A stretch of DNA of 64,000 bases. It comes from Thraustochytrium sp. TN22 (Eukaryota > Sar > Bigyra > Thraustochytrida > Thraustochytriidae). The notes under the pieces were generated by a model that was not told the origin of the DNA, did not search any database, and saw nothing but the letters and a program-made list of their open reading frames with translations. Location: NCBI GenBank assembly GCA_013306675.1, contig JABLUY010000147.1:1-64000 (forward strand), in the 5' to 3' direction. Shown in pieces: positions 1 through 43,421 of this stretch (the first letter of the stretch is position 1; each line of letters starts with the position of its first letter). A program made the position numbers and the translations under genes.

Positions 1-55
1 CCGGTCTAATTTGCCCGCGTTGCGACGCCCTTTTCTAAGGACCAACCGACCCCTC
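1..55 (-). mobile_element. Terminal end of a second copy of the 4.95 kb DNA transposon
   Basis: The first 55 bases are the exact reverse complement of 38464-38518, the left end of the transposon annotated at 38464-43414. Identity stops after position 55, exactly at the terminal base inferred for the other copy (terminus GAGGGGTCGGTTGGTC read on the minus strand). The rest of this copy would lie to the left of the window. It is either a second insertion in opposite orientation or a solitary end; the window cannot tell which. Confidence 0.8.
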
Positions 56-12434: not shown

Positions 12435-14193
12435 ATGGCAAGCCAGGACGCCATGGCACGCCGGGAGGGCATGCTTGCCATGGTGCGGCGCTTCCAGCGC
12501 ACGCCACTCAGACGCGAGGTAGGTAACAGAGCAAACGATTAGAGGCCGCACCGAGAAGCTGACGGACGCCGTGGTCGCGCAGATTATCGAGGCCTTTGTC
12601 TCCATGAACGGCGACAACGAGGACACCACCCTGAGTAAGACGGAGCTTCGTGAAGGCCTTCAACGCAAATTCGACGTCGACCTCACGCACGCCGAGGTCG
12701 ACGGCATATTTGAGGAGATGGATGTAAACATCGATGGACGCATTGACATTGTCGAGTTCGCCGACGTCTTCCTCCAGCATGCTGAGGCAGTCGAACGCGA
12801 GAAGATGATGACGGAGCCTGCTGGCTACGGAGATGACAATAAGCCTGACGACAAGCCCCTTGAAAGCAACGGCGGTGACGAGCCGGCGCCCTACGGCTAC
12901 GATGGCGACAGGCCTGACGACAAGCCTCATGACGAGCCTAAGGATTACGGCGATATCAAACCAACGCCAGATGAGAAGCCCGACATCACGCCTGACGACG
13001 GGGCAGAGGGCTATGGCAATAATCGGCCGGAGCCAGACGGCTATGAGGGCGACAAAAACAAAGATTACGGGACTGACGGGACCAACGCGCCAGACGATGA
13101 AGACATCCAGAACCTAGAGGATGACGAGGACCAAAAAGACAAGGAGTCGAACGACTACGAGGACCCAAAGCCCGCACCGCCGAACGACTACGAGGACCCG
13201 AAGCTGGCCCTACCAGACGACTACGAGGACAAGAAGCCCAAGGAGTCGGCCGGCGACTACGGGGACAAAGAGTCCACGCAGCCGGACGATTACAAGCAGG
13301 AAAGGCCCACACCGCCAGACGACTTCGAGGACCAAAGATCCAAGCAGTCTGACGACCACGGGGACAAAACGCCCACACCGCCGGACGACAACGAGGATGA
13401 GGATCAAGACCCCACACCACCGGACGAGTACGAGGACCAAAAGCCCAACCACGCGGACGAGTACGAGGACAAGAAGCCCGCACCGCCGGGCGACTCTAAG
13501 GATGAGGATCAAAACCCCACACCGCCGGACAAGTATGAGGACCAAAAGCCCAACCGCGCGGACGAATACGAGGACCAGAAGCCCACACCGCCGGACGACA
13601 GTCCGAGTGAGCCGCCACAGGTGGATCCCACACCAAAGCAGGAGGAATCGGAATACGAGGCCAAGGAGAAGAAATCCGATCCTTCACCAGAGCCCAAGCC
13701 TTCTCCTCCTCGTCCCGGAAAGGTCGATCCAGCCCCGCCGCAACCTGAAAAGCCGCTCGATGAGAAAAAACGACCCGATGACCTCGAGAAGGCTGACAGC
13801 GAGGAGAAAGACCCAGCACCCAAACCTAAAGTCAGGCCGGACAACAAGGTGCACCCCGAGGGCGGGGAAGCTATCGTTCGGCGCAAAAAGAACGGATGGG
13901 GCACTCCCATGAAGGTGTTCTGCGTGATCGGCTTGCTAGCCGCCATCATCGTCATCGTCATCGTGGTCGTCGTCGAGGGTGCGCACGACCAGCACGAGGC
14001 TGACGGCGATGACGACCTGGCGACGGTGGCACCAACAGTGGAGGACGTAGTCGTCGTCGTCCCGACGCTAGCGCCAGCAAATGCGCCGACGATAGCGCCA
14101 TCAGATTCGCCGACGCTGGCGCCAACGGAGCAGCCGACGGACCCGCCGACGCCTGTACCAACTGCGGACACGCTGACGACGTTCGATCGATAG
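12435..14193 (+). CDS. EF-hand protein with acidic proline repeat, one membrane segment and APT-rich tail
   Basis: The main frame (12556-14193) encodes a paired EF-hand; the second loop DVNIDGRIDIVEF is canonical, the first is less regular. About 300 residues of Asp/Pro/Lys/Tyr-rich degenerate repeats follow (units like PPDDYEDKKP). A basic segment precedes one strong membrane helix (VFCVIGLLAAIIVIVIVVVV), and the tail has stramenopile APT repeats (TLAPANAPTIAPSDSPTLAP). Inferred topology: Ca2+-binding region in the cytosol, short Ser/Thr/Pro tail outside. The start is uncertain. No ATG precedes the EF-hands in this frame, but 12435-12518 begins with ATG and ends at a GTAGGT donor. Joining it to an AG acceptor at 12555 keeps the frame but needs a 37-bp intron. 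The first in-frame ATG is 12604. The gene converges on the lipase, with 177 bp between the ends. Confidence 0.8.
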
Positions 14194-29144: not shown

Positions 29145-29992
29145 GGCGCGCGGCGAGGGACCGCGGCGAGAGCGTCGGAGCTTCGGCAAGCAGCGGCAAG
29201 CGGCGGCGCCAGTCTTGTTTCGCGCGCGGCTCCGTTCGCTGTAGTTAGGCGGCGAGCGCGCGCGCCCCGAGTCGGCCTCCCCGCGCGCCGCTTCCTTCGC
29301 GCCGCCGGTCTTCGCGAGCGCGGCGCGCCCCGGCTGCCCCCTCTCCTCCCGCGCGGGTGTAGGCTTGCGCCTAGGAGGCGCGTAGAGCAGGCTTCGATCG
29401 GGACCGACCGCGGCCAGGCAGGCCACGCCAGGCCCGGCGCGGCGCGGCGCGGCGCGCGGCGCGAGGGCGCGGCGCGAGGGCGCGGCGCCGGCGCGGCGAG
29501 GCGAGGCGAGGCGCGGCGCGGCGCGGCGCGCGAGGCGCGGCGAGCGAGGCGAGGCGAGGCGAGGCCCGCCGAGCCCCGGCCGGAGAGTGAGACCGGGGAG
29601 AAAGGGAGAAAAGGAGGGAGAGCCGCGGCGCATCGCGGCGAGCCGCGACCGGTGCCGGGCGAGCCGCGGGCGCGCGCCACCCAGCAGCGGCGTGGCGCGG
29701 GCGGGCGGCGCGGGCGGGCGGGCGGGCGTGCGGCGGCGCGGCGCGGCGCGGCGCGCGTATTTGCGCGGCGGCGGCGTACGGCGCGAGGAGCGGCAGCGCG
29801 CGCGCGGCGGCCTCGACGGCGGCGGCCGCTGCGGAGACGGCGGCGGGCGACCGGGCCCCGTGCGCCGCGCCGGTGGATTTTTCCCGCGAGGTGCAGCGGC
29901 AGGCTTCCCATGCACGGGGCGCCGCAACGGGTTGCGAGACATTCGTGAAGACCGAGCGAGCACCGCGCGACGGGGCCCGCGCGGTCCCGGAC

Positions 29993-32900
29993 ATGAGCAG
30001 CGGGCCCGCGAGGGACGACGGCCTCGAAACTTCGCCCGCCAGCACGAAGGGAGAGCCTGCCTCGGACTCGACCACCGGCGCAACTAACGCAGCACCTGCG
30101 CAGCCCGGTCTTGACGCGAGGACGACGGGCGTAGCCACGCGCTCGTCGCCGCGTGCGGCTGCGGCCGCCGCGGCGGCCCAGGACCAGGTCGCGCAGACTG
30201 CTGTTGGCAAGAAGCAGCAGCAGGACCAGATGCTCTCTGATCCGCCGCCCGCTACGGCGGTGCCCGTGCGCGAGCCCTCTTCACAGCCCGCGCAGCAGCC
30301 AGCGCCAGCTCAGGCCCAGGCCCAGGCCCAGGCTCTGTCGCAACCTACCGCGTCCCAGCAGCAAAGCCAGCCCCAGCCGCCTCACCAGCAACAGCAACAG
30401 CAGCCGCAGCAGCAGCAGCAGCCGCAGCAGCAGCAGCAGCAGCAGCCGCAGCAGCAAGCTCAACAGCAATCGCAACAGCAGGCTCAGGCTCAGGCTCAGA
30501 CTGCCACGAACGCCGCAAGACCAGCAGCGGCGCCCGCTAGCGGCGGTGGGCAGTGGCGCGTGGACCCTCAAGCTGATGTGGAGGCACGGCGTCAGGTCAT
30601 CCAGCAGATTGTGAGTTTGCTGGAGAGCTGTAAGCCAAAGACTTTCCAGCGGCGGCATGAAAAGCTTGTGGACCTGGCCAGGAGACTCGAGGTGGCTCTT
30701 TACAAGCAGTCACGGACCAAGGCCGAGTACATGGACCGGAATACCTTGCGACAGCGCGTGCGCGAGCTCGCCAAGGCGAGCACCGCGCAGCAACAGCAGA
30801 TGCAGATGCAGCAGCAGCAACAGCAGCAGGCTCAGGCTCAGGCACCCACGGGGGGCGCCGGGCCTGCCTTCGTAAATGCTCGGCCTGCGGCACGTCCGGT
30901 TGCTCAGGGCCAGGCCCAGCCGGTCGCGCAGGCTCAGGGCCAGGCGCAGCCACAGGTGCAGACTCAGCAGCCGTCCTCTCAGGCGCTTGCGCAGGCACAG
31001 CTGACACCGCAGCAGCAACAGCAGCAGCGGCAAATTTTGCACCAGACCCAGGCGCACTCTCTGTCGCATCCGGCCATGGCCGCCGCCCAGCAGCGGACGG
31101 GCGCTTCGGCGGACAAGGAGCAGATCCTCAAGCAGCGGCAGCAGCGGCTGCTGCTGCTACGACACGCTAGCCGGTGCACCAACCCTGAGGGTACATGCAC
31201 GGTGACGGAGCTTTGCGGCCGCATGAAGCGCTTGTGGAAGCACATTTCCAAGTGTAAGGACCCGCGCTGCCCCGAGCCGCACTGCGTGTCGTCGCGCTAC
31301 GTGCTTTCGCACTACCACCGCTGCGACAAGTCAGAGTGCCCAGTGTGCAAGCCGGTCCGCATCATCTCGGCCAAGCAGCGCGCGCAGCAACCGCAGGACC
31401 AGCAGCAGCTTCTTCACGCACAGCAACACGCTCAGAACCAGGCACTCCGGGCGCAGTCCGCCCGGGTCGCCGACCCGGCGGCGCGTGCCGCGCTCGCTGG
31501 TAGGCCTGGTGTCCAGGGCGCGGCTCGGCCGCAGCAGCAGCACGCGTCCGCGGCGCAGCAGCAGCAGCAGCACGCGTGGCAGCAGCAGCAGCAGCTTCTT
31601 CAGATGCAGCAGCAGCAGCAGCAGCAGCATGCTGCGGCGACCCAGCGCCGCCGCCAGCCGCAGCACTTGTTGCAGCAACAGCAGCAACATCAACAACAAC
31701 ACCCTCAGACTCAGGAGGAGCTGGAGAGGTTGCGCGCCAAGTATCCGAACGCCATTGACCCGACCAAGGCGCGTCACTGCAAGTCGGGCACCGGACCATC
31801 TCTGCCCTTTAGCATGACCCGCGCCGACGTCGAGAGCCACATTCAGTCGCTGCGCGTCGAGGGCATTCAGCCCAATGTGCGCCCCCTGCTCCGCAAGCTC
31901 ATTGAGCACAAGTCCAACAAGGGCATTTACAACCAGCCTGTGGACTGGAAGGCCATGAACATCCCGGACTATCCCAAGATCATCACCAACCCGATGGATC
32001 TTGGCACCATCCGCAAGCGTCTCGATACCTCGTATTACAAGACGCTCAAGCAATTTCGCGACGACGTCGAGCTCACCTTCAAAAACGCCATGACCTTCAA
32101 TCCTCCCGAGAACGAGTACCATACGCGTGCCCACGACCTGCTCAAGGTCGCGCAGAAGGAATTCCCAGCCATTCAGAACAAAATCGAGCGCAACGGTCGA
32201 CCCCGGAACCAGGACTGCCAGCTCTGCCGCCAGGCTGTCTGCGAGCAGTGCCCGCTTTGCGAGCGCGGCTGTATCCCCTTTCAGCCCAAGCTCCTCTTCT
32301 GCTCCGGCACCTGCGGCAAGCGCATCCAGCCCAACAGCGTCTACTACACCGGCGTCGGCTACAACTACTGCTGGTGCAGCGACTGCTACGACAAGGCGCG
32401 CGGGGGCGTGCTGGCCGTCAACAACCAGAGCTACAACAAGGAGGATCTCCACAAGAAGAAGAACAACGAGCTCTACGGCGAGCCCTGGGTCTCATGCGAC
32501 AAGTGCGAGCGCTGGGTGCACCAGGTCTGTGCTCTCTTCAACTCGCGCAAGAACAGCCTCAACTCGTCGCAGGACTACATCTGCCCGCTCTGTCTCATCA
32601 AGGAGTCCAAGGCCGGTGAACAGGAGCGCGCGGCCAAGGCCAAGGCCGGCGCCCCCGCCCTCGAGGACGACAAGAACGCGGCCGCCTCCGCGGCTGCCGC
32701 AAACGCCAACACCCAGGCCGTCGGCGACGATGCTGCTCGTGCGAAGGGAAAGTACGAGCACTTTGTTCTGCCGGCCGGCAAGCGCGTCCCGAGTGCCAAG
32801 GAGCTCGACCAGACGCGCATGGGTGTCTTCCTGGAGAAGTGGCTTCGCAAGAGCATCGACGATTTTCGCGCCCGCGAGCATACCAAGGGCAGCGAGGCCG

Positions 32901-35900
32901 CGTTGCGCGACCTGGGGCCCGCCTCGGACAAGCTCCACGTGCGTGTCCTCTCCAACTTTGACGAGTCCTGCAAGGTCAAGCCTTTTGTGAAGCGCCTCAT
33001 CCCCGAGTACCCGGATGAGTTCCCTTTCCGCTCGCGCTGCATCTTTTGCTTCCAGGAGCTCGATGGCGTCGATGTCCTATTCTTCGCCATGTTCGTCCAG
33101 GAGTACGGCTCCGACAGCCCGGCGCCCAACAGCCGCAAGGTCTACATTGCCTATCTCGACTCCGTCTACTACTTCCAGCCGCGCCGCATGCGCACCGCCA
33201 TCTACCACGAGCTTCTCCTTGGCTACCTGGAGTATATGCGCCGCGACGGCATGACGTCGGCCTACATTTGGGCCTGCCCGCCGCCCAACAAGCGCGACGA
33301 CTACATCATCCACTGCCACCCGGAGGACCAGCGCGTGCAGACTGCCGAGCGCCTGCGCAAGTGGTACCACGACATGATTGAGGTGGGCTCCAAGTCCCGC
33401 ATCTTCATGGGCTCCTGTGCCATGTTCGAGGAGCACTTTGAGGCATCGGCGCGCGCCAACAACAAGAAGAAGTCCAAGGCCAAGAAGCGCTCCGGCAAGG
33501 CCAAGTCCAAGGCCAAGTCCAAGAGCAGCAAGAAGGGCAAGAAGTCCTCGCGCAAGAGCTCCTCCGCGCGCCGCATCTCAGGCGCCGCTGCTGCCGCCAA
33601 GGCCGCCTCGGCGGCCAAGGCGGAGGCCAAGGCTGCCGCCGAGGCCGAGGCGGCTGCCGCCGCTGCGTCTGCGTCCGGCAAGGCTGGCAAGTCAGCCGAG
33701 GACGACGGCAAGGACGGCGATGAAGACAACAACGACGGCGACGACGCGCTCGGTCTGCTCGCTGACATGCCCGACATGGCTGGGGATGGCGGCGAGGACG
33801 ACGAGGACGACGACGAGGAGGACGACGAGGCCAACACTGAGGCGCGCGCCACGCCTGAGGATGGAGCACCGCTCTCGGATGCTGACAAGGCCAAGGCCGT
33901 GGCCGAGGCCGCCGGCGTCACCTTCATCACGCCGGCCAATGGCGTGCGCGCCGGAGACGATCGCATGCTGGCCGCCGACCTTGAGCGCCGCAAGAAGAAC
34001 AAGCTCGCTGCCGCCGGCAACCTGCCGTACTTTGAGGGAGACTACTGGCCGCAGGAAGCGGAGGAGCTTGCCAAGGAACGCGCCCGTCAGAAGAAGAAGG
34101 AAGACGACGACTCCACGGGCGGCCGCAGCAAGCGCAAGCGCCGCCGCAGTGCTGGCGAGGACGCCTCTGGAGAGGCGGCCACTGCAGGCGAGGAGGCCGA
34201 CCCCGCCAAGGCCGGCTCCGACCTTGCCGTCGAGCTGAGCGAGGAGGAGGCCGCGGAGGCGCGCGTGCAGCTCATGCAGCGCCTTGCCCAGCAGCTCGAG
34301 GTCATGAAGGACGACTTCCTTGTCGTCAAGATGGCCCACGAGTGCTCGCGCTGCGGCATCTACCTGCTGCGCGGTCGCTGGGAGTGCCGCCACCCGTCCT
34401 GCCTCGAGGACTCAGGCTTCAACAAGTCTTGCCCCTTTGCGCTCTGCAACAGCTGTTACGCCCTCGAAGTCAAGCGCCCCGCCGAGCAGCAGCACGGTGG
34501 CGGGTGCGTTGCCGACGGCGACGCCGGCAAGCCAAAGCCCGCCACGGAGGAGGCGGACAAGGTCGCTGGCAAGGACCAAACTGTGGTCGATGTCAACGCT
34601 GACTTCAAGCGCAAGGAGAAGGAGCGCCTCGAGAAGGAGCGCCAGGACAAGGCCAAGCGCGAGGCGGACGCCAAGGCCAAGGAGGATGCCAGGAATGGCA
34701 CTGGCGACTCGGATCCCAAGCGCGTCAAGCTCGAGGCTGGCGCCGCCGATGTCAAGCAGGAGCAGAATGGCGAGGCTGGCCCCAAGCCCGCCACTGTTGT
34801 CGAGGTCAAGAAGGAGGAGCAGGCCAGTGCTGAAACCAAGCCTGCGTCTACGAAGCGTAGCGCTGCGGACGCGGGCGCGGACGGAGACGGAGACGGAGGC
34901 GTCTCTGGCAAGCCTGTGGATGCAGGAGCCGGAGCATTGGAGCCTTCGACGAAACGCCAGAAGCTCGAGAATGGCGACGCCAAGCCGGCGGCAAACGGCA
35001 GCAACAAAGACGAGGCCACGCCGTCGGAAGCCAAGGATGGCGAAAAGCCGGATGCTACTGCCGAGCCCACGGCAGACGCCACAGAGGCCAAGGCCGATAC
35101 CGATGCCAAGGCCGAGGCCGAGGCGGCCGCCCCGTCGGTGTCTGCGGAGGAGCCCGCACCAGCTGCGACGGCGAACGGCGATGAGACAAAGCCCGCTGAG
35201 ACGACGGTGAAGGACGGTATCAAGAAGGAGCAGGTGGAAGGAGAGGAGAAGGAGGAGAAGACGACGGGTGGCGCCGACAAGACCGTCAACAAGGTGAAGA
35301 CGGAGCAAAAGGAAGAGAAGGAGGCTGAGGAACAGAAGAAGAACAAGGTCGACGAGGACCCCGAGGCCAAGAAGAAGCGGCTTGCTGAGGAGCGCAAGCG
35401 CAAGGAGGCCGAGGATGCGCGCAAGAGGGAGGAGGAGCTGGCCGAATGGGACAAGGTCCCGCTCGGCTGCACGCGCGAACCGATTCCCAAGACCGCCGAG
35501 GACCACATCCTGCATTACGTGGACGAGAATTTGCCGGTGCGCACGCCGGACCGCGACAAGATAATCAAGAACCACCTGCTTGAGTCGCGGCATGCCTTCC
35601 TCTCCCTGTGCACCGGCAACCGGTACCAGTTTGACCAGCAGCGTCGCGCCAAGCACTCAACCATGATGGTCCTTTACCACCTGCACAACCCGGACGCACC
35701 CGCGCACCTGTACACCTGCTTCGAGTGCCACTCGGACATTCTCTCTGGGAAGCGCTACCACTGCGATGTGTGCAATGGTGGCGACTACGATATCTGCGTG
35801 CACTGCAAGCGTCACAACAGCCACGATCATACGCTCACACCGTTTGTTGTCACGCGCGGTGTGCAAGCCGAGACCTCGGAGGCGCAGCGCATGCAGCGCG

Positions 35901-36571
35901 TGCAGGAGATGCAGCGCGCCCGACAGCACTCGCTTGCGCTCTTCCTTGAGGCACTCGTCCACTCCTCTCAGTGCAACGATCTGCAGTGCAAGAAGGCGCC
36001 CTGCAAGAAGATGAAGGAGCTCCTCAAGCACCGCATGACGTGCGAGGTGCGCGTGCGCGGCGGTTGTGAGATTTGCCGCCGTGTGCTCTGCCTTGTGCAG
36101 ATGCATGCGCGTACTTGCAACCTGCCCAACTGCCGTGTCCCTCACTGCGAGGACCTCAAGGTCCACATCACCAAGCACAAACAGCAGCAGATGCTGCTGT
36201 ACCGCCGGCAGCAACAGCAACAACAGCAACCATCGCAGCAACAGCTCACGCAGCCCGAGCTCGTGCAGCAACACGCTGTCCAGCAGCGCCAACTTGCGCT
36301 TCAGCAGCAGCAGCAGCAGCAGCAGCCAACATCGCGCGGCCGAGGCCGAGGCGCCGCTGCTCGCGCCGCGCATGTTGGCGCCGCGGCGCAGGCTGTGGCC
36401 CAGGCTGGCCAACAGATTCAGGCCACCGTCGTGGAGGGCTCCGGCGGCACACGCCTCAAGATTCGGCCGACCAACATTCGGCCGACCAACGCGAACACCA
36501 CCGGCGGCGCCGCGGCGCCAGGATCCGCACCGCGTTCCTCGGCACGTGGCCAGCGCTCCGCGCGCAGGTAA
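29993..36571 (+). CDS. p300/CBP-type histone acetyltransferase (KAT11 family)
   Basis: A 2192-residue transcriptional coactivator that acetylates histones and transcription factors, in the nucleus. Domains in order, by residue: Gln-rich start; KIX-like helical region ~187-263; TAZ1 zinc finger ~378-456 (RHASRCTNPEGTC ... HRCDKSECPVC); bromodomain ~630-723 (NQPVDWKAMNIPDYPKII, then NPMDLGTI); Cys-rich RING/PHD region ~741-870; KAT11 catalytic domain ~918-1146 (IAYLDSVYYFQPRRMRTAIY, ELLLGYLEYMR); a divergent ZZ-like finger ~1448-1493; a long Lys/Glu/Ala-rich charged linker; a canonical ZZ finger ~1907-1953 (CFECHSDILSGKRYHCDVC); TAZ2 ~1978-2063; Gln-rich end. The ATG at 29993 is the first in frame; upstream codons are open but lack ATG. 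It is intronless over 6.6 kb. Confidence 0.95.
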   Translation: MSSGPARDDGLETSPASTKGEPASDSTTGATNAAPAQPGLDARTTGVATRSSPRAAAAAAAAQDQVAQTAVGKKQQQDQMLSDPPPATAVPVREPSSQPAQQPAPAQAQAQAQALSQPTASQQQSQPQPPHQQQQQQPQQQQQPQQQQQQQPQQQAQQQSQQQAQAQAQTATNAARPAAAPASGGGQWRVDPQADVEARRQVIQQIVSLLESCKPKTFQRRHEKLVDLARRLEVALYKQSRTKAEYMDRNTLRQRVRELAKASTAQQQQMQMQQQQQQQAQAQAPTGGAGPAFVNARPAARPVAQGQAQPVAQAQGQAQPQVQTQQPSSQALAQAQLTPQQQQQQRQILHQTQAHSLSHPAMAAAQQRTGASADKEQILKQRQQRLLLLRHASRCTNPEGTCTVTELCGRMKRLWKHISKCKDPRCPEPHCVSSRYVLSHYHRCDKSECPVCKPVRIISAKQRAQQPQDQQQLLHAQQHAQNQALRAQSARVADPAARAALAGRPGVQGAARPQQQHASAAQQQQQHAWQQQQQLLQMQQQQQQQHAAATQRRRQPQHLLQQQQQHQQQHPQTQEELERLRAKYPNAIDPTKARHCKSGTGPSLPFSMTRADVESHIQSLRVEGIQPNVRPLLRKLIEHKSNKGIYNQPVDWKAMNIPDYPKIITNPMDLGTIRKRLDTSYYKTLKQFRDDVELTFKNAMTFNPPENEYHTRAHDLLKVAQKEFPAIQNKIERNGRPRNQDCQLCRQAVCEQCPLCERGCIPFQPKLLFCSGTCGKRIQPNSVYYTGVGYNYCWCSDCYDKARGGVLAVNNQSYNKEDLHKKKNNELYGEPWVSCDKCERWVHQVCALFNSRKNSLNSSQDYICPLCLIKESKAGEQERAAKAKAGAPALEDDKNAAASAAAANANTQAVGDDAARAKGKYEHFVLPAGKRVPSAKELDQTRMGVFLEKWLRKSIDDFRAREHTKGSEAALRDLGPASDKLHVRVLSNFDESCKVKPFVKRLIPEYPDEFPFRSRCIFCFQELDGVDVLFFAMFVQEYGSDSPAPNSRKVYIAYLDSVYYFQPRRMRTAIYHELLLGYLEYMRRDGMTSAYIWACPPPNKRDDYIIHCHPEDQRVQTAERLRKWYHDMIEVGSKSRIFMGSCAMFEEHFEASARANNKKKSKAKKRSGKAKSKAKSKSSKKGKKSSRKSSSARRISGAAAAAKAASAAKAEAKAAAEAEAAAAAASASGKAGKSAEDDGKDGDEDNNDGDDALGLLADMPDMAGDGGEDDEDDDEEDDEANTEARATPEDGAPLSDADKAKAVAEAAGVTFITPANGVRAGDDRMLAADLERRKKNKLAAAGNLPYFEGDYWPQEAEELAKERARQKKKEDDDSTGGRSKRKRRRSAGEDASGEAATAGEEADPAKAGSDLAVELSEEEAAEARVQLMQRLAQQLEVMKDDFLVVKMAHECSRCGIYLLRGRWECRHPSCLEDSGFNKSCPFALCNSCYALEVKRPAEQQHGGGCVADGDAGKPKPATEEADKVAGKDQTVVDVNADFKRKEKERLEKERQDKAKREADAKAKEDARNGTGDSDPKRVKLEAGAADVKQEQNGEAGPKPATVVEVKKEEQASAETKPASTKRSAADAGADGDGDGGVSGKPVDAGAGALEPSTKRQKLENGDAKPAANGSNKDEATPSEAKDGEKPDATAEPTADATEAKADTDAKAEAEAAAPSVSAEEPAPAATANGDETKPAETTVKDGIKKEQVEGEEKEEKTTGGADKTVNKVKTEQKEEKEAEEQKKNKVDEDPEAKKKRLAEERKRKEAEDARKREEELAEWDKVPLGCTREPIPKTAEDHILHYVDENLPVRTPDRDKIIKNHLLESRHAFLSLCTGNRYQFDQQRRAKHSTMMVLYHLHNPDAPAHLYTCFECHSDILSGKRYHCDVCNGGDYDICVHCKRHNSHDHTLTPFVVTRGVQAETSEAQRMQRVQEMQRARQHSLALFLEALVHSSQCNDLQCKKAPCKKMKELLKHRMTCEVRVRGGCEICRRVLCLVQMHARTCNLPNCRVPHCEDLKVHITKHKQQQMLLYRRQQQQQQQPSQQQLTQPELVQQHAVQQRQLALQQQQQQQQPTSRGRGRGAAARAAHVGAAAQAVAQAGQQIQATVVEGSGGTRLKIRPTNIRPTNANTTGGAAAPGSAPRSSARGQRSARR

Positions 36572-37855: not shown

Positions 37856-38463
37856 GGTGCTGCGCACGACGATGCACTGCGCAGGGAGTCGTGTCTGCGC
37901 GACCCGCGACCCGCAGCGGGTTTGGTGCAGCGCTACGCGGAGAGGCAGGCAGGCTGGCGTGCGGGCCTGCCCACGCAGCAGGAATGGCTGAACAGCCGGC
38001 GCCCTGCTGTCCACTTTGGGAGGTCAAGTCCAAGCTCCTTCTTTGCCAAAGCTTGTCTAACCTCGGTCCGCGCCGCAGCCCCGCGCTGTTCCAGGTCGCC
38101 GCGCGGAGCCGTATTGCGCTGCATCGTGCCAGTGCAGTGCCGCGCCGCGCCGCGCCGCCCGCGGAGTGCACACCCCGCTTCCTTCTTGCCCTTCTCTTCT
38201 ACTAGTAGTGGTCACGGTAGCTACAGCCTCGTAGCTTCTATTTTTGTGGAGCTTGCCAGGACAGTCCATCCACAGGGTGCTGGCCGCCCACAGTCGGGTC
38301 CAGAGATTTAATGACCGGGTCTCGTCTTTCACCTTCGGCCGCCTCCGAGTCTTCTTCTTTCGGATAGTTTCACGAGGTGCGCTTCTTCGCTTCCCACCTG
38401 CTCCTGCCTGTAGCGCCGTAGCGGGCCTCGTTCCCGTGAACTCACGCGAAAAGCCAAGGTGCG
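37856..38463. other. Kinase 5' flank up to the transposon
   Basis: Contains the promoter and leader of the TKL kinase. No gene was recognised. Its last seven bases (38457-38463, AGGTGCG) are the left target-site duplication of the transposon. Confidence 0.5.
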
Positions 38464-38518
38464 GAGGGGTCGGTTGGTCCTTAGAAAAGGGCGTCGCAAC
38501 GCGGGCAAATTAGACCGG

Positions 38519-39428
38519 TTCGACGGCGAACCCGGTCTATTTTCATGACCATGTCGCTTGTGATCCACATGCGCTCGAGAGCAATGCTTTAGCCAGACAT
38601 AGTTCAATTGCTTTATGCTCCGCTTCCTGAAATTTTGATAGTTGTTGGTTCTTTTTTGGTGCTGTTATCTATTATTGAAGATGACACCTTCGTGACCATC
38701 TGTAGATCAAGCATTCCAGTTCTGGGTGTTCCCTTCGACAGAGGAGCCTCAAGACGGTGAGAGGTGTCCGCATGCCCTCGTAGTGCACTTGAAATTCGAG
38801 CTCGGGTATCTATAGGTCCTTCAAAGAACTCGAACTCTCTTGAAGTTTTCTCATGAAATAATCAATCGAATTGTGATTTTCTTCGGCCATTGAACATAAA
38901 GGTTACATAGCTTTCTTTTGTGCCAATTTTGATTGTGTCTGAGATGAATTGATTGAATATTTCGCATGAGAAGTTTGTTGTATTTGCCACTGTACAAATC
39001 CGTAGTTAGAGAAATGGGGGGTACGCACTACCAAGTTAGGCTGTCTTGTGTGACATGTACACACCTTCTTCGTCGCATGAGGCGTTGACTCGGGGCCGGG
39101 TTCTGCCAGCTTGCTCGTGCAAGCCCTGTCCCAGCGTATAATGGCCGTGCGAGCGGTCTGCGAGCGAGAGCTGAGAAAGCGAAAGGGATTGCACGCGCGC
39201 GCGTACGACGCGCGCGTGCGCGTACGAGGCATCCGCTGCGCGCGGTCGTGCCGAAGCCCCGGCCTCGGGCTGCTCCCATCGTTGTGAGGCATCATCCATC
39301 CCGCGGATCCGCGGGCGCGGATCCGCGGGCGGGACGCGGGCTGAGGTGGCGCCTTGGCGCGCTTGCGCCTTGGCGCGCTTGCGCCTTGGCGCGGCTGCGC
39401 GCCGCGCAAGGGTCAGGGTCTGGCCACC
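38519..39428 (+). promoter_or_regulatory. AT-rich transposon leader with hairpins
   Basis: A 910-bp non-coding stretch before the transposase. 38540-39060 is conspicuously AT-rich against the GC-rich host. A palindromic segment straddles the left end (38512-38538, AGACCGGTTCG paired with its near-complement). A GC hairpin lies at 39191-39219 (GCACGCGCGCG / CGCGCGCGTGC). GCGGATCCGC palindromes occur twice at 39302-39330. An 18-bp repeat of GCGCCTTGGCGCGCTTGC type occupies about 39350-39401. Confidence 0.6.
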
Positions 39429-42400
39429 ATGGAGAATCAGACAAGGTTTGTTGAGCGCCTGTCGGAGCTCGTCGCCTCAGCTCCTGGCTTGTGGGGTCTC
39501 TGGTGGTCGCCCGAACCCAACCACATCCCATCTCGCTTCGCTCGTTGGTCGAGATGGCGCGCAACCAAGGCAAACAACATATGTGTGCTCGAGCTCGATG
39601 GTGGGCAGTACTGCCTGCTATACGACAAGGAGAGGAAGAAGAAGCGCCACTGGTTCTGCATCGTGCAAGCAGGCAACTGGAGCGAACCAGGTACGCTCCG
39701 CGGGCACGTTGATGCCCTTCGCTGTGGCCCCAATGCACCCACGCCCGAGCAAATGATGGTGCTCAATGACCTCCTGTCCGGCATGAAGGCTCTTGTTCAG
39801 GAGTACAGCTGCAAGCGTCAGAGAACAGACGCGAGTGCGTCTCCCGCCGATGACCAGCCGGTGGTTAGGTCCTCGCGGAACGCAGGTCCCGAGACCGGAG
39901 GCGCGCCTGCGCCGCCCGCAGCGCGCTGCCAAGGCTTTCCAGCAGCCTATTGCTTCTCTGACAGCGTCGATTCAAACGGCACGACCGGGTGGAGCACGAC
40001 GTGCACGGGCGGAACCGCGACGAAACGATGTGACGCGTGCGTGAAGGCGTTTGCATGCAACAGGTCCTACATGTGCCGGCTGAGAACGGCACTCATGACG
40101 CGGGACGTTACGCTCGACGATGACGTGACGTTTGACAAGCTCGTGGAGGTGATCGTGCGGATGCGGCGCACCAACGAGGACCTCGAGAGGAAGATCAAGA
40201 GGATCACCGCAGAGCAAGCGCGTCCCCGCGAGCCAGAGGGAAGCGAGTCCACGCGCGAGCTCGTCGAGCTCATTGAACGTGTAAACGTGCCGTCGTCACA
40301 CTTCCTCTACAAGTTCACGTTCTCTATGTACCACGCCATGGAGGCCTACATGACAGGCAAGGGTCAGTATCATTGGGACACAAACCCACACTCGCGTGTG
40401 GTGAAGTCCTTCTTCATGTTCATTCACATGCTGCCACACTCCTCGCGGATCCTAAATGCACTTCACGGTTATGGCCAGATGGGTCGCGGGAACAACGCCA
40501 ACAAGGGACCAATCAACATCCACCTTTTCAACCTACCCATCCCGACCGTGACAACGCTGCAGAAGAGCGTGGGGAGGCTCGGCTCGCCCTACACACCGTT
40601 CCGGAGCGGATGCATTGAGCGTTTCTGCAAAGCTATGCTCGCGAAAGGCTCGCTTCTTTACGTGATTACGATGGACGGGATCGAGGCAAAGAGGGACGGT
40701 CTCCTCGAGGTGGCCTCCTTCGAAGGCAAGCCGTACTTGATCGGCCTCGACTACTACGAAGAGGAGCGCATCCGCGCGAGGCACAAGGACGAGGGGAAGG
40801 AAGAGGCAGACATTGTGCAAGAGCTGTTCACCTTCCGCGGAAGCATCGCGGCAGCCAAGCTCGTCACAGTCATCCTCAAGAGTCCCGACAACCGCATTCG
40901 GATCCCGGTCGCCGCCGTCCCTGTGCGGAGCGAGAACGCCAGCGCGATCTCCCGAATTGTGAACGACGTCGTCGAGCGAGTGCGGGAGGCTTCTGGGGAC
41001 AGGCTCGAGCCAATGGCGGTCTGCTCGGACGCCGCGGCAAGCAACCAGAAGGGTTTCGCCCAGAGTGCAATCTCTGACGAAGCCACTCGGCCCGGGGCCA
41101 ACGGGGTCGACGAAGAGGACGAGGAAGCGGACGATGACGACTCAGACCTCGAGGATCACGACGTACGCGAGCAAGATCAAGACGGATGTGAGGAGGACAG
41201 TGCGGCGGCCAACCCTCCCGCTGCTCCTGCGGCCTCCCCTGCGAGGCTGGTCCTGGACAAGGACCACATTGTCAAGGCCTTCGTGGGGCAGCTTCGTAGG
41301 AAACAACTCCGGCACAAGGGCAAATCGTACCAGCTCATCGAGCTCCTGATCGGTTTGCGCAACAACAAACCATGCCTGAGCGCCAAAGGCCTGTGCAGGA
41401 GCGCGGACATCCCATTGCAAGAATTGCTCGCTGGCGGGCTCTCGCCGGAGTCCATCGAATGCCTCGCCAAGGTGCTCCCGGCCAGCGCATTTCTCGACGA
41501 GAGCAGAACCAAGCTGCGGATTTCCGCTCACGAGGCCATTCGCAACGCCATGAGGATCCTCGTCACACCGGCTGCGCTCGACGACTCTGATCCGATGAAC
41601 TGCAAGCTCCGACTCCAGCTTATCTCGCCTGCCGTCCAACGCGTCCTGCGGATGGCAGAGCTGAGCGAGCACACGGGCGTCCTCGCCGAGCTGATGCAGA
41701 TCGGCACAGACATGTACTACATCTTCGAAAAAGACGACTTCCGGGCGTGTGAGGTGAAACGAACACAGCGCCAGGACCGAAGCATCGGAGAGGTCGCCGC
41801 CGCTGGTCAGCATATCCAGGTCAAGCTGGAGGCCTGGTATCACGACTATCACGTCCCGATCAACGGCAAGACCAACACCAGCGGTTTCATCTCCACGCTA
41901 ACGTTCCGCAACCTCATCAGCTTCTGCAGCGTCTGGCGGGAGCTAGAACAACGTTCGCACGAAGAAGGCATCGCAGACAGCATCGTCCCTCGCGCACTCC
42001 AGTCCATGGACAACGAGACGCTGCACTCCATGATCCGCGAGCCCTGCCAAGACATCAGCATCAAGACCGGCCTCAGCCAGTTTGGCGCATGCGCGCTTCG
42101 CATGGCTGTCCTCGCCGAGCCCAGGCGCGGGTACATCCTTCTAACGTCTCGGGACATCATGGCGCAGTACTCGACCATGGAGCGAGAGCGCATCGAGGCG
42201 GGCGAGTTTCTTCGTGTCGAGTCCTCAGACTGTGTGAACCCATTCGAAAAACTCTGCGGGCCCATGTATTACAACAACGCATGGGACGGGTGCGCCAAGG
42301 AAACCAAACTGCCAAAGACGTGCGAAGCGTGGACGGAGCAACTGCGCGCGATGTACGAGATGGAGAATCGCGCACGCACAACAACGCTGCGCGACTCGCT

Positions 42401-43151
42401 CAGAAGGTATTGCGCGACCAGTGCTGAGCAAGTCAATGAACGAGCACGCCAAAGGTCCTCCACATCGCGCGACCAGACGTATAGCGGTGGATTCAAGGCG
42501 CTCAGCATGATGCGGGACCCAGATCGCGCGCAGGTCACAAGCTTCAAGGCACCGACCAGCAAGACCAATCACAAGGTCCTCTGCACCACGGCGATCCTGG
42601 CACACATGACACAAGGCGCAAACGTGGTGAGCCATGAAACATTCAAGACAACGCAGGGAAGCTCGCCGCAACAGCCGTCCAAGAAGCTCTGGGTATCTTT
42701 CGGCTTTCGCTCCAACAAACGTGAGCCCACGATCGAGCTCATCACGAGGGAAGGGCGCCGGGAAGAGAAAACGGTCGTCATCCTAGCACAGTCGAAGGTT
42801 TACGGCCTCCGCTTCCAGCCGATGGGAGTCCATGGCTCCAGCAACCGAGGTAGCGACCCGCGCAGGGCCATCATTCGAGCCTTCTTGGCTACAAACGAGC
42901 ATCACATTGAAGCGGACTTTCCGCTCACAGCACTCGGCAAGAACCCGGCTCAGACGCTCGCCCAGATCGTCCGAGTCAAATCGGCGGGAAGCTCCATGGG
43001 CTGGGCGCTGGCCTTCCGCCAAAGCCAGGTGACTCGCGCGCTGCTATCGACAGCGCAGCGTCTGGACCAGGCGTCCAAGGCTTTGCGCGAGGCCATGAAC
43101 GACGCGGCGGCCACTGCCTCTAACGGCGCAAGAAAACTATTTAACTCTTAA
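39429..43151 (+). CDS. Transposase (DDE/RNase H-like, P/THAP9-like motif order)
   Basis: A 1240-residue protein from an ATG in an excellent GCCACCATGG context, inside inverted repeats with a target duplication. The N-terminal domain is rich in Trp and basic residues. A Cys-rich segment (CTGGTATKRCDACVKAFACNR) and a short coiled coil (RTNEDLERKIKRITAEQ) follow. The core looks like an RNase H fold: strand with first Asp (LLYVITMDGIEAK), strand with second Asp (LEPMAVCSDAAASNQKGF), an acidic insert, then KDHIVKAFVGQLRRK, matching the DP.HL.K..RN motif that follows the second Asp in P-element and THAP9 transposases. The third acidic residue could not be placed. No THAP finger is visible. Function (cutting and joining the element's ends) is inferred from context and motif order. 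Confidence 0.8.
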   Translation: MENQTRFVERLSELVASAPGLWGLWWSPEPNHIPSRFARWSRWRATKANNICVLELDGGQYCLLYDKERKKKRHWFCIVQAGNWSEPGTLRGHVDALRCGPNAPTPEQMMVLNDLLSGMKALVQEYSCKRQRTDASASPADDQPVVRSSRNAGPETGGAPAPPAARCQGFPAAYCFSDSVDSNGTTGWSTTCTGGTATKRCDACVKAFACNRSYMCRLRTALMTRDVTLDDDVTFDKLVEVIVRMRRTNEDLERKIKRITAEQARPREPEGSESTRELVELIERVNVPSSHFLYKFTFSMYHAMEAYMTGKGQYHWDTNPHSRVVKSFFMFIHMLPHSSRILNALHGYGQMGRGNNANKGPINIHLFNLPIPTVTTLQKSVGRLGSPYTPFRSGCIERFCKAMLAKGSLLYVITMDGIEAKRDGLLEVASFEGKPYLIGLDYYEEERIRARHKDEGKEEADIVQELFTFRGSIAAAKLVTVILKSPDNRIRIPVAAVPVRSENASAISRIVNDVVERVREASGDRLEPMAVCSDAAASNQKGFAQSAISDEATRPGANGVDEEDEEADDDDSDLEDHDVREQDQDGCEEDSAAANPPAAPAASPARLVLDKDHIVKAFVGQLRRKQLRHKGKSYQLIELLIGLRNNKPCLSAKGLCRSADIPLQELLAGGLSPESIECLAKVLPASAFLDESRTKLRISAHEAIRNAMRILVTPAALDDSDPMNCKLRLQLISPAVQRVLRMAELSEHTGVLAELMQIGTDMYYIFEKDDFRACEVKRTQRQDRSIGEVAAAGQHIQVKLEAWYHDYHVPINGKTNTSGFISTLTFRNLISFCSVWRELEQRSHEEGIADSIVPRALQSMDNETLHSMIREPCQDISIKTGLSQFGACALRMAVLAEPRRGYILLTSRDIMAQYSTMERERIEAGEFLRVESSDCVNPFEKLCGPMYYNNAWDGCAKETKLPKTCEAWTEQLRAMYEMENRARTTTLRDSLRRYCATSAEQVNERARQRSSTSRDQTYSGGFKALSMMRDPDRAQVTSFKAPTSKTNHKVLCTTAILAHMTQGANVVSHETFKTTQGSSPQQPSKKLWVSFGFRSNKREPTIELITREGRREEKTVVILAQSKVYGLRFQPMGVHGSSNRGSDPRRAIIRAFLATNEHHIEADFPLTALGKNPAQTLAQIVRVKSAGSSMGWALAFRQSQVTRALLSTAQRLDQASKALREAMNDAAATASNGARKLFNS

Positions 43152-43273
43152 GAGGAAAGGACAAGAACTTGACATAAAGGCATCACTTGACGATCATCTG
43201 GATCTCTCACCGCCTCGACGTGTAGCGTAAGTCTCACGCGCAGCCGCCACAACGCGCGCGCTGGGAGCTCAGC

Positions 43274-43343
43274 TAGCGCTCACTCGCCACGCGAGCGAGC
43301 GCTAGAGCCTCATAACGCGCACTCGCTACGCGAGCGAGCGCGG
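43274..43343. repeat. Subterminal inverted repeats at the right end of the transposon
   Basis: Two consecutive imperfect hairpins, TAGCGCTCACTCG / CGAGCGAGCGCTA and CGCACTCGC / GCGAGCGAGCG, 70-140 bp inside the right terminus. They are plausible transposase-binding sites. Confidence 0.6.
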
Positions 43344-43421
43344 AACCGCGGCGGACTGTGCGAGGAACGCTTCCCAGGCTAATATGGGCCGCCAGAGCGA
43401 CCAACCGACCCCTCAGGTGCG

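Follow-up and report, generated by a model that had tools for sequence, protein, structure and literature searches.

The 64,000 nucleotides of Thraustochytrium sp. TN22 DNA analysed here (positions 1 to 64,000 of contig JABLUY010000147.1, hereafter the window) hold, at 38464-43414, a recently mobile cut-and-paste DNA transposon (class II, terminal inverted repeat order) in a eukaryotic genome. Most likely this transposon is autonomous and recently active, and its gene, a single open frame, codes for a divergent P-type (TNP-like) DDE/RNase H transposase. The P-type reading is based on a sub-threshold match to the Pfam family PF21787, the order of D, D, D(2)H and E residues in the protein and a 7-bp target-site duplication (TSD). 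On these features, a THAP-less P/THAP9-like RNase H transposase is the most likely and best-supported reading, though one that is not proven.

Boundaries and a second insertion

An earlier reading of the sequence without database searches (the sequence-only reading) had described a complete DNA transposon with 16-bp terminal inverted repeats (TIRs), an AGGTGCG duplication and a frame of 1,240 codons. All of these parts were confirmed at the same positions, and a second copy can now be added. The features that define the element are as follows.

38464..43414, + strand: whole element, 4,951 bp, delimited by the TIRs, the TSD and the left-end match with the second copy; left to right is the direction of the transposase gene
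38457..38463, unstranded: left target-site duplication, AGGTGCG
38464..38479, + strand: left TIR, GAGGGGTCGGTTGGTC, complementary to the right end at 16 of 16 positions
43399..43414, - strand: right TIR, complementary to the left end at 16 of 16 positions
43415..43421, unstranded: right target-site duplication, AGGTGCG
39429..43151, + strand: transposase gene, 1,240 codons in a single uninterrupted frame, with GCCACCATGG as start context
1..55, - strand: left end of the second copy, in opposite orientation and continuing past the window edge; 55 of 55 positions identical to 38464-38518

A 16-bp inverted pair alone means little here because the window is rich in GC-rich repeats: 2,231 perfect pairs with a spacing of 0.5-8 kb occur in it, and when 100 windows were simulated with a first-order Markov model, 33 contained at least one such pair. 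Combined with a matching 7-bp duplication, the pair is found only once among the 2,231, namely at the ends of the element at 38464-43414, and in none of the 100 simulations.

Mobility is seen in a third occurrence of the TIR, at 40-55 on the minus strand. From base 55 back to base 1 the sequence is the same as the element's leftmost 55 bp (BLAST E 4e-23), so that the match extends well past the TIR. This second copy lies about 38 kilobases from the full element and its right end is beyond the window. The seven bases outside the left ends are AGGTGCG in the full element and GAGGGCA in the second copy, and an identical 55-base end next to a different flank therefore represents a second insertion, i.e., the element has moved. 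Copies with non-coinciding ends had been named in the sequence-only reading as evidence that would speak against the element; the left end of the second copy instead coincides with 38464, which gives more than one copy with the same left end over the 55 visible bases. A tblastn search of the window with the transposase turned up no additional copy, the next best match having an E of 1.4.

Ten bases (AGGTGCGGAG) are common to both flanks of the element, which leaves room for a duplication 8 to 10 bp long. Anything longer than 7 bp would, however, require chance matches in the flank of the second copy (about 1 in 4 for 8 bp and 1 in 64 for 10 bp), and a duplication of 8-10 bp would break the end symmetry of the element. 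As the identity between the copies starts at 38464 and the TIRs are symmetrical, the boundary at 38464 and the 7-bp duplication are favoured over a longer one. Exact 8- or 9-mers of the TIR are absent from the non-coding DNA that lies inward of the ends. P-like subterminal inverted repeats are not claimed for the element, the best match (12 points) being equalled in 2 of 40 shuffles.

The transposase and its proposed catalytic residues

The transposase gene translates into 1,240 residues with no internal stop and looks coding by its codon usage, which correlates with that of five other window ORFs at r = 0.88, compared to 0.43 and 0.30 for the other two forward frames. Its third-position GC (0.75) is below the 0.81-0.86 of the same five ORFs. 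The segments and residues of the protein that are discussed below are located as follows.

39489..39710, + strand: Trp-rich N-terminal segment of no known family (Pfam gave nothing at E up to 10)
39999..40115, + strand: Cys-rich segment (RCDACVKAFACNRSYMC), a candidate metal-binding part for DNA recognition, suggested by its sequence; no Pfam match
40674..40676, + strand: D416, proposed first catalytic Asp (VITMDGIEAK), from motif reading against D230 of DmTNP; outside the PF21787 match
40866..41062, + strand: residues 480-544, PF21787 stretch (TNP-like RNase H N-terminal domain), below the curated cut-off
41028..41030, + strand: D534, proposed second catalytic Asp (CSDAAASNQK), at PF21787 column ~124, as D303 of DmTNP
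41256..41267, + strand: D610-H613, putative D(2)H motif (LDKDHIVK), from motif reading and the P signature described in PMC8230255
42015..42017, + strand: E863, proposed catalytic Glu (MDNETLHSMIR), from motif reading

The transposase protein or pieces of it were compared in 25 queries with the 24,736 Pfam models, with matches listed at E up to 10. PF21787 was the sole Pfam family listed in five of the six queries that span residues 480-541 (E 0.052, 0.022, 0.034, 0.022 and, in a longer fragment, 0.018 as the best value); the full-length query missed it. The best score, 15.8 bits, is below the curated cut-off of 24.6. PF21787 was drawn by none of six shuffled or reversed fragments and by none of ten fragments of other ORFs. 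The control sequences did draw unrelated families, from E 0.063 upwards, so an E of 0.02 alone is unconvincing. For PF21787 as a single model, the chance is P ~1e-6 per model and query, and this value rather than the E for 24,736 models applies since the P superfamily had been named beforehand in the sequence-only reading. At E 0.022 residues 483-541 align to profile positions 76-131, and residues 212-316 of the P transposase DmTNP (PDB 6P5A) to positions 12-137. This places D534 at column ~124, the column of the catalytic D303 of DmTNP, provided that the last few columns are free of gaps. With the superfamily named in advance and D534 in the D303 column, the match appears to be more than noise.

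In PMC8230255 the P signature is given as D, D, [C/D](2)H, E. By eye, this signature can be traced through D416, D534, D610-H613 and E863, in that order. Aligned by hand to DmTNP, VITMD416GIEAK faces LAFD230EMK, CSD534AAASNQK faces VSD303LGTGNQK, LD610KDH613IVK faces SD339TPHLIK and MDNE863TLHSMIR faces DIVE531HFFGSMR, and the SDxxxxNQK and D(2)HxxK wordings agree between both proteins with equal internal spacing. The spacings between the signature residues are 118, 76 and 253 in the transposase of the element versus 73, 36 and 192 in DmTNP. An acidic insert of about 60 residues ahead of D(2)H, probably disordered, accounts for the longer second spacing (76 versus 36). The D444 of DmTNP, described as essential in P (PMC8230255), finds no Asp counterpart in the hand alignment.

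When the five motif blocks were scored as a chain over residues 285-965, 14 of 1000 shuffles of this core were as good, which is a weak score. The best core chain includes D534 and D610 and omits D416 and E863, and on the full protein the best path runs through other residues altogether. Neither hhalign nor BLASTP of the transposase against DmTNP was significant. Because of this and the weak motif-chain score, D416 and E863 stay proposals.

Structure prediction with AlphaFold without an alignment gave mean pLDDT values of 34 for residues 270-1000 and 47 for residues 401-550, which are too low to use. In the low-confidence model of residues 401-550 the order of strands and helices would fit the first half of an RNase H fold, with D416 in an unformed stretch. 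Foldseek searches with this model against PDB and viral structures returned nothing at E <= 0.001; the best 50 of 342 PDB matches and the best 50 of 789 viral matches include no entry named as a P or RNase H transposase. The pyrophosphatases (E 0.5 and above) and phage proteins (best E 0.0086) among the matches listed are regarded as noise. Likewise, phmmer against PDB found the P transposase in none of five queries; its matches to SPT16 (E 2.9), protein A (E 0.16) and 'THR2' (E 0.029), from one query each, are taken as chance, and the remaining two queries drew no match.

Fragments covering residues 605-790 gave no match to PF21788 (GTP-binding insertion domain), which is matched by DmTNP, and a stretch of suitable length for an insertion domain is present between D610 and E863. 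PF21789 (RNase H C-terminal) and PF12017 (HTH), both of which match DmTNP, were unlisted at E up to 10. The lack of a THAP finger noted from the sequence was borne out by the Pfam queries, as PF05485 (THAP zinc finger) was unlisted in the queries with residues 1-269, with shorter pieces of the N-terminus and with the full length. The Trp-rich N-terminus and the Cys-rich segment had been called unfamiliar, and they remain so: residues 1-269 and 1-132 drew no Pfam match, the best E for any N-terminal piece was 0.19, and the full-length protein matches no Pfam and no NCBIfam family. Matches of pieces to MCM_C (E 0.17) and OTU1_UBXL (E 0.19) are taken as chance, and a PHROGs match of the acidic stretch to a family of unknown function (E 0.25) was dismissed. 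The profile search that the sequence-only reading had proposed for classifying the transposase returned PF21787 below its cut-off.

Relation to P-type elements and rival classifications

With Drosophila P and DmTNP the element shares the cut-and-paste anatomy. By motif reading it would also share the succession of D, D, D(2)H and E, with a long stretch separating D(2)H from E, and its sub-threshold PF21787 match covers the second Asp. The P element is described as having TIRs of 31 bp and a TSD of 8 bp (PMC7776569); unlike P, the element from Thraustochytrium has TIRs of 16 bp and a TSD of 7 bp, and no THAP finger was found. Its protein differs from DmTNP in its length (1,240 versus 751 residues in the P sequence compared), in the acidic insert of ~60 residues ahead of D(2)H and in that the other P Pfam domains were undetected. 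A duplication of 7 bp is shared with Galileo, a member of the P superfamily in Drosophila for which 7- or 8-bp duplications, mostly of 7 bp, are described (PMC4168063), and the 7-bp duplication of the element lies within the 7 or 8 bp of the P superfamily. Galileo is also described with a THAP domain and with Foldback-like TIRs of unusual length (PMC4168063), whereas the TIRs here are short (16 bp) and a THAP domain was not found. Short TIRs (13 bp) together with an 8-bp duplication are described for zebrafish Pdre2 (PMC7776569), and a P-type DDE signature with an insertion domain for THAP9 and Pdre2 (PMC8230255). By these descriptions, the element would resemble THAP9 and Pdre2 in its DDE signature with an insertion domain and the zebrafish element in its short TIRs, and differ in the lack of a detected THAP finger and in a duplication of 7 bp versus the 8 bp of zebrafish.

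The P/THAP9-type assignment made from the sequence alone thus gained the sub-threshold PF21787 match, the D/D/D(2)H/E order and the 7-bp TSD, but the pairwise comparisons were weak and the four other P-transposase models (PF21788, PF21789, PF12017 and THAP) stayed silent. The same silence and the same weak pairwise tests against DmTNP speak for a rival reading, in which this cut-and-paste transposon would belong to a different or new DDE superfamily (for instance hAT-, Kolobok- or Dada-like) and would resemble P only through the shared RNase H fold and the [C/D](2)H motif. That motif is not known to be exclusive to P, a point in favour of such an origin. Nevertheless, the 25 Pfam queries listed no transposase model other than PF21787, neither hAT nor MULE nor any other, and SDxxxxNQK and D(2)HxxK occur as in DmTNP with the same spacing, which makes another superfamily an unlikely source. 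A domesticated host gene or a decayed element that has lost its mobility is far less probable still. Although the window holds a single full copy and its edge cuts the second one, the perfect TIRs with their duplication, the unbroken frame and the second insertion, whose end is identical but whose flank differs, all argue against a loss of mobility.

A divergent P-type transposase stays the preferred reading for the gene. A more far-reaching and tentative classification is that the element might be the founding member of a THAP-less P-type lineage in microbial eukaryotes, in which a module of Trp-rich and Cys-rich parts would replace the THAP finger in recognising the ends. In its boldest form, this lineage would be a separate superfamily branching near P.

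Proposed mechanism, relatives and genomic context

The paired ends, the duplication and the second insertion are read from the DNA itself and frame a possible mode of transposition. The transposase would bind both ends, which may be recognised by the Trp-rich and Cys-rich N-terminal parts. As in P, D416, D534 and E863 would hold the metal ions for cutting the ends, and the cut ends would then be joined to target DNA at positions 7 bp apart, where repair would leave the 7-bp duplication. The stretch of ~250 residues from the D(2)H motif to E863 could correspond to a P-transposase-like insertion domain, GTP-binding or not. In this scheme the catalytic residues, the end-recognition module and a GTP dependence are modelled on P.

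According to PMC7776569, no transposase or integrase other than that of the P element uses GTP as a cofactor, and the relatives described in these sources (P, THAP9 and Galileo) are from animals and carry THAP domains (PMC7776569, PMC4168063, PMC8230255). If the P-type reading is true, a P-like element in a protist would allow a test of whether GTP use predates the animal branch, and an apparently active P-like element without THAP in a microbial eukaryote would point to an alternative way of end recognition. Perhaps it could also provide a transposon tool for a group that has few.

Scans of viral contigs with the transposase or its pieces, with part of DmTNP and with the 21-base left end yielded no relatives, as did scans of prokaryotic genome contigs for relatives of the element; one tblastn match to phages (E 0.5) is taken as chance. 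In the openly licensed literature, covered by titles and the openings of abstracts, no report was found of this element or of P-type elements among thraustochytrids or labyrinthulomycetes.

Rfam matches and tRNAs were absent from the window, which has a GC content of ~65% and long uninterrupted genes. The element sits between two ORFs in divergent orientation, a kinase with its likely start at ~37855 on the minus strand and an ORF with its likely start at ~43797 on the plus strand. Products encoded in the window are, among others, a UGGT glucosyltransferase, two protein kinases and a p300/CBP-type histone acetyltransferase. Genes of this kind mark the host as a eukaryote, and the GC content and gene structure would suit a protist. 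The acetyltransferase gene occupies 29873-36571 in one uninterrupted frame of 2,232 codons, with two TAZ stretches and bromodomain, PHD and ZZ domains. Tandem repeats include an array at 766-988, near the second copy, with 2.9 copies of a 78-bp unit (97% matches), and an array at 13151-13600 within a 540-codon ORF, which combines a 33-bp unit with a 105-bp higher-order unit.
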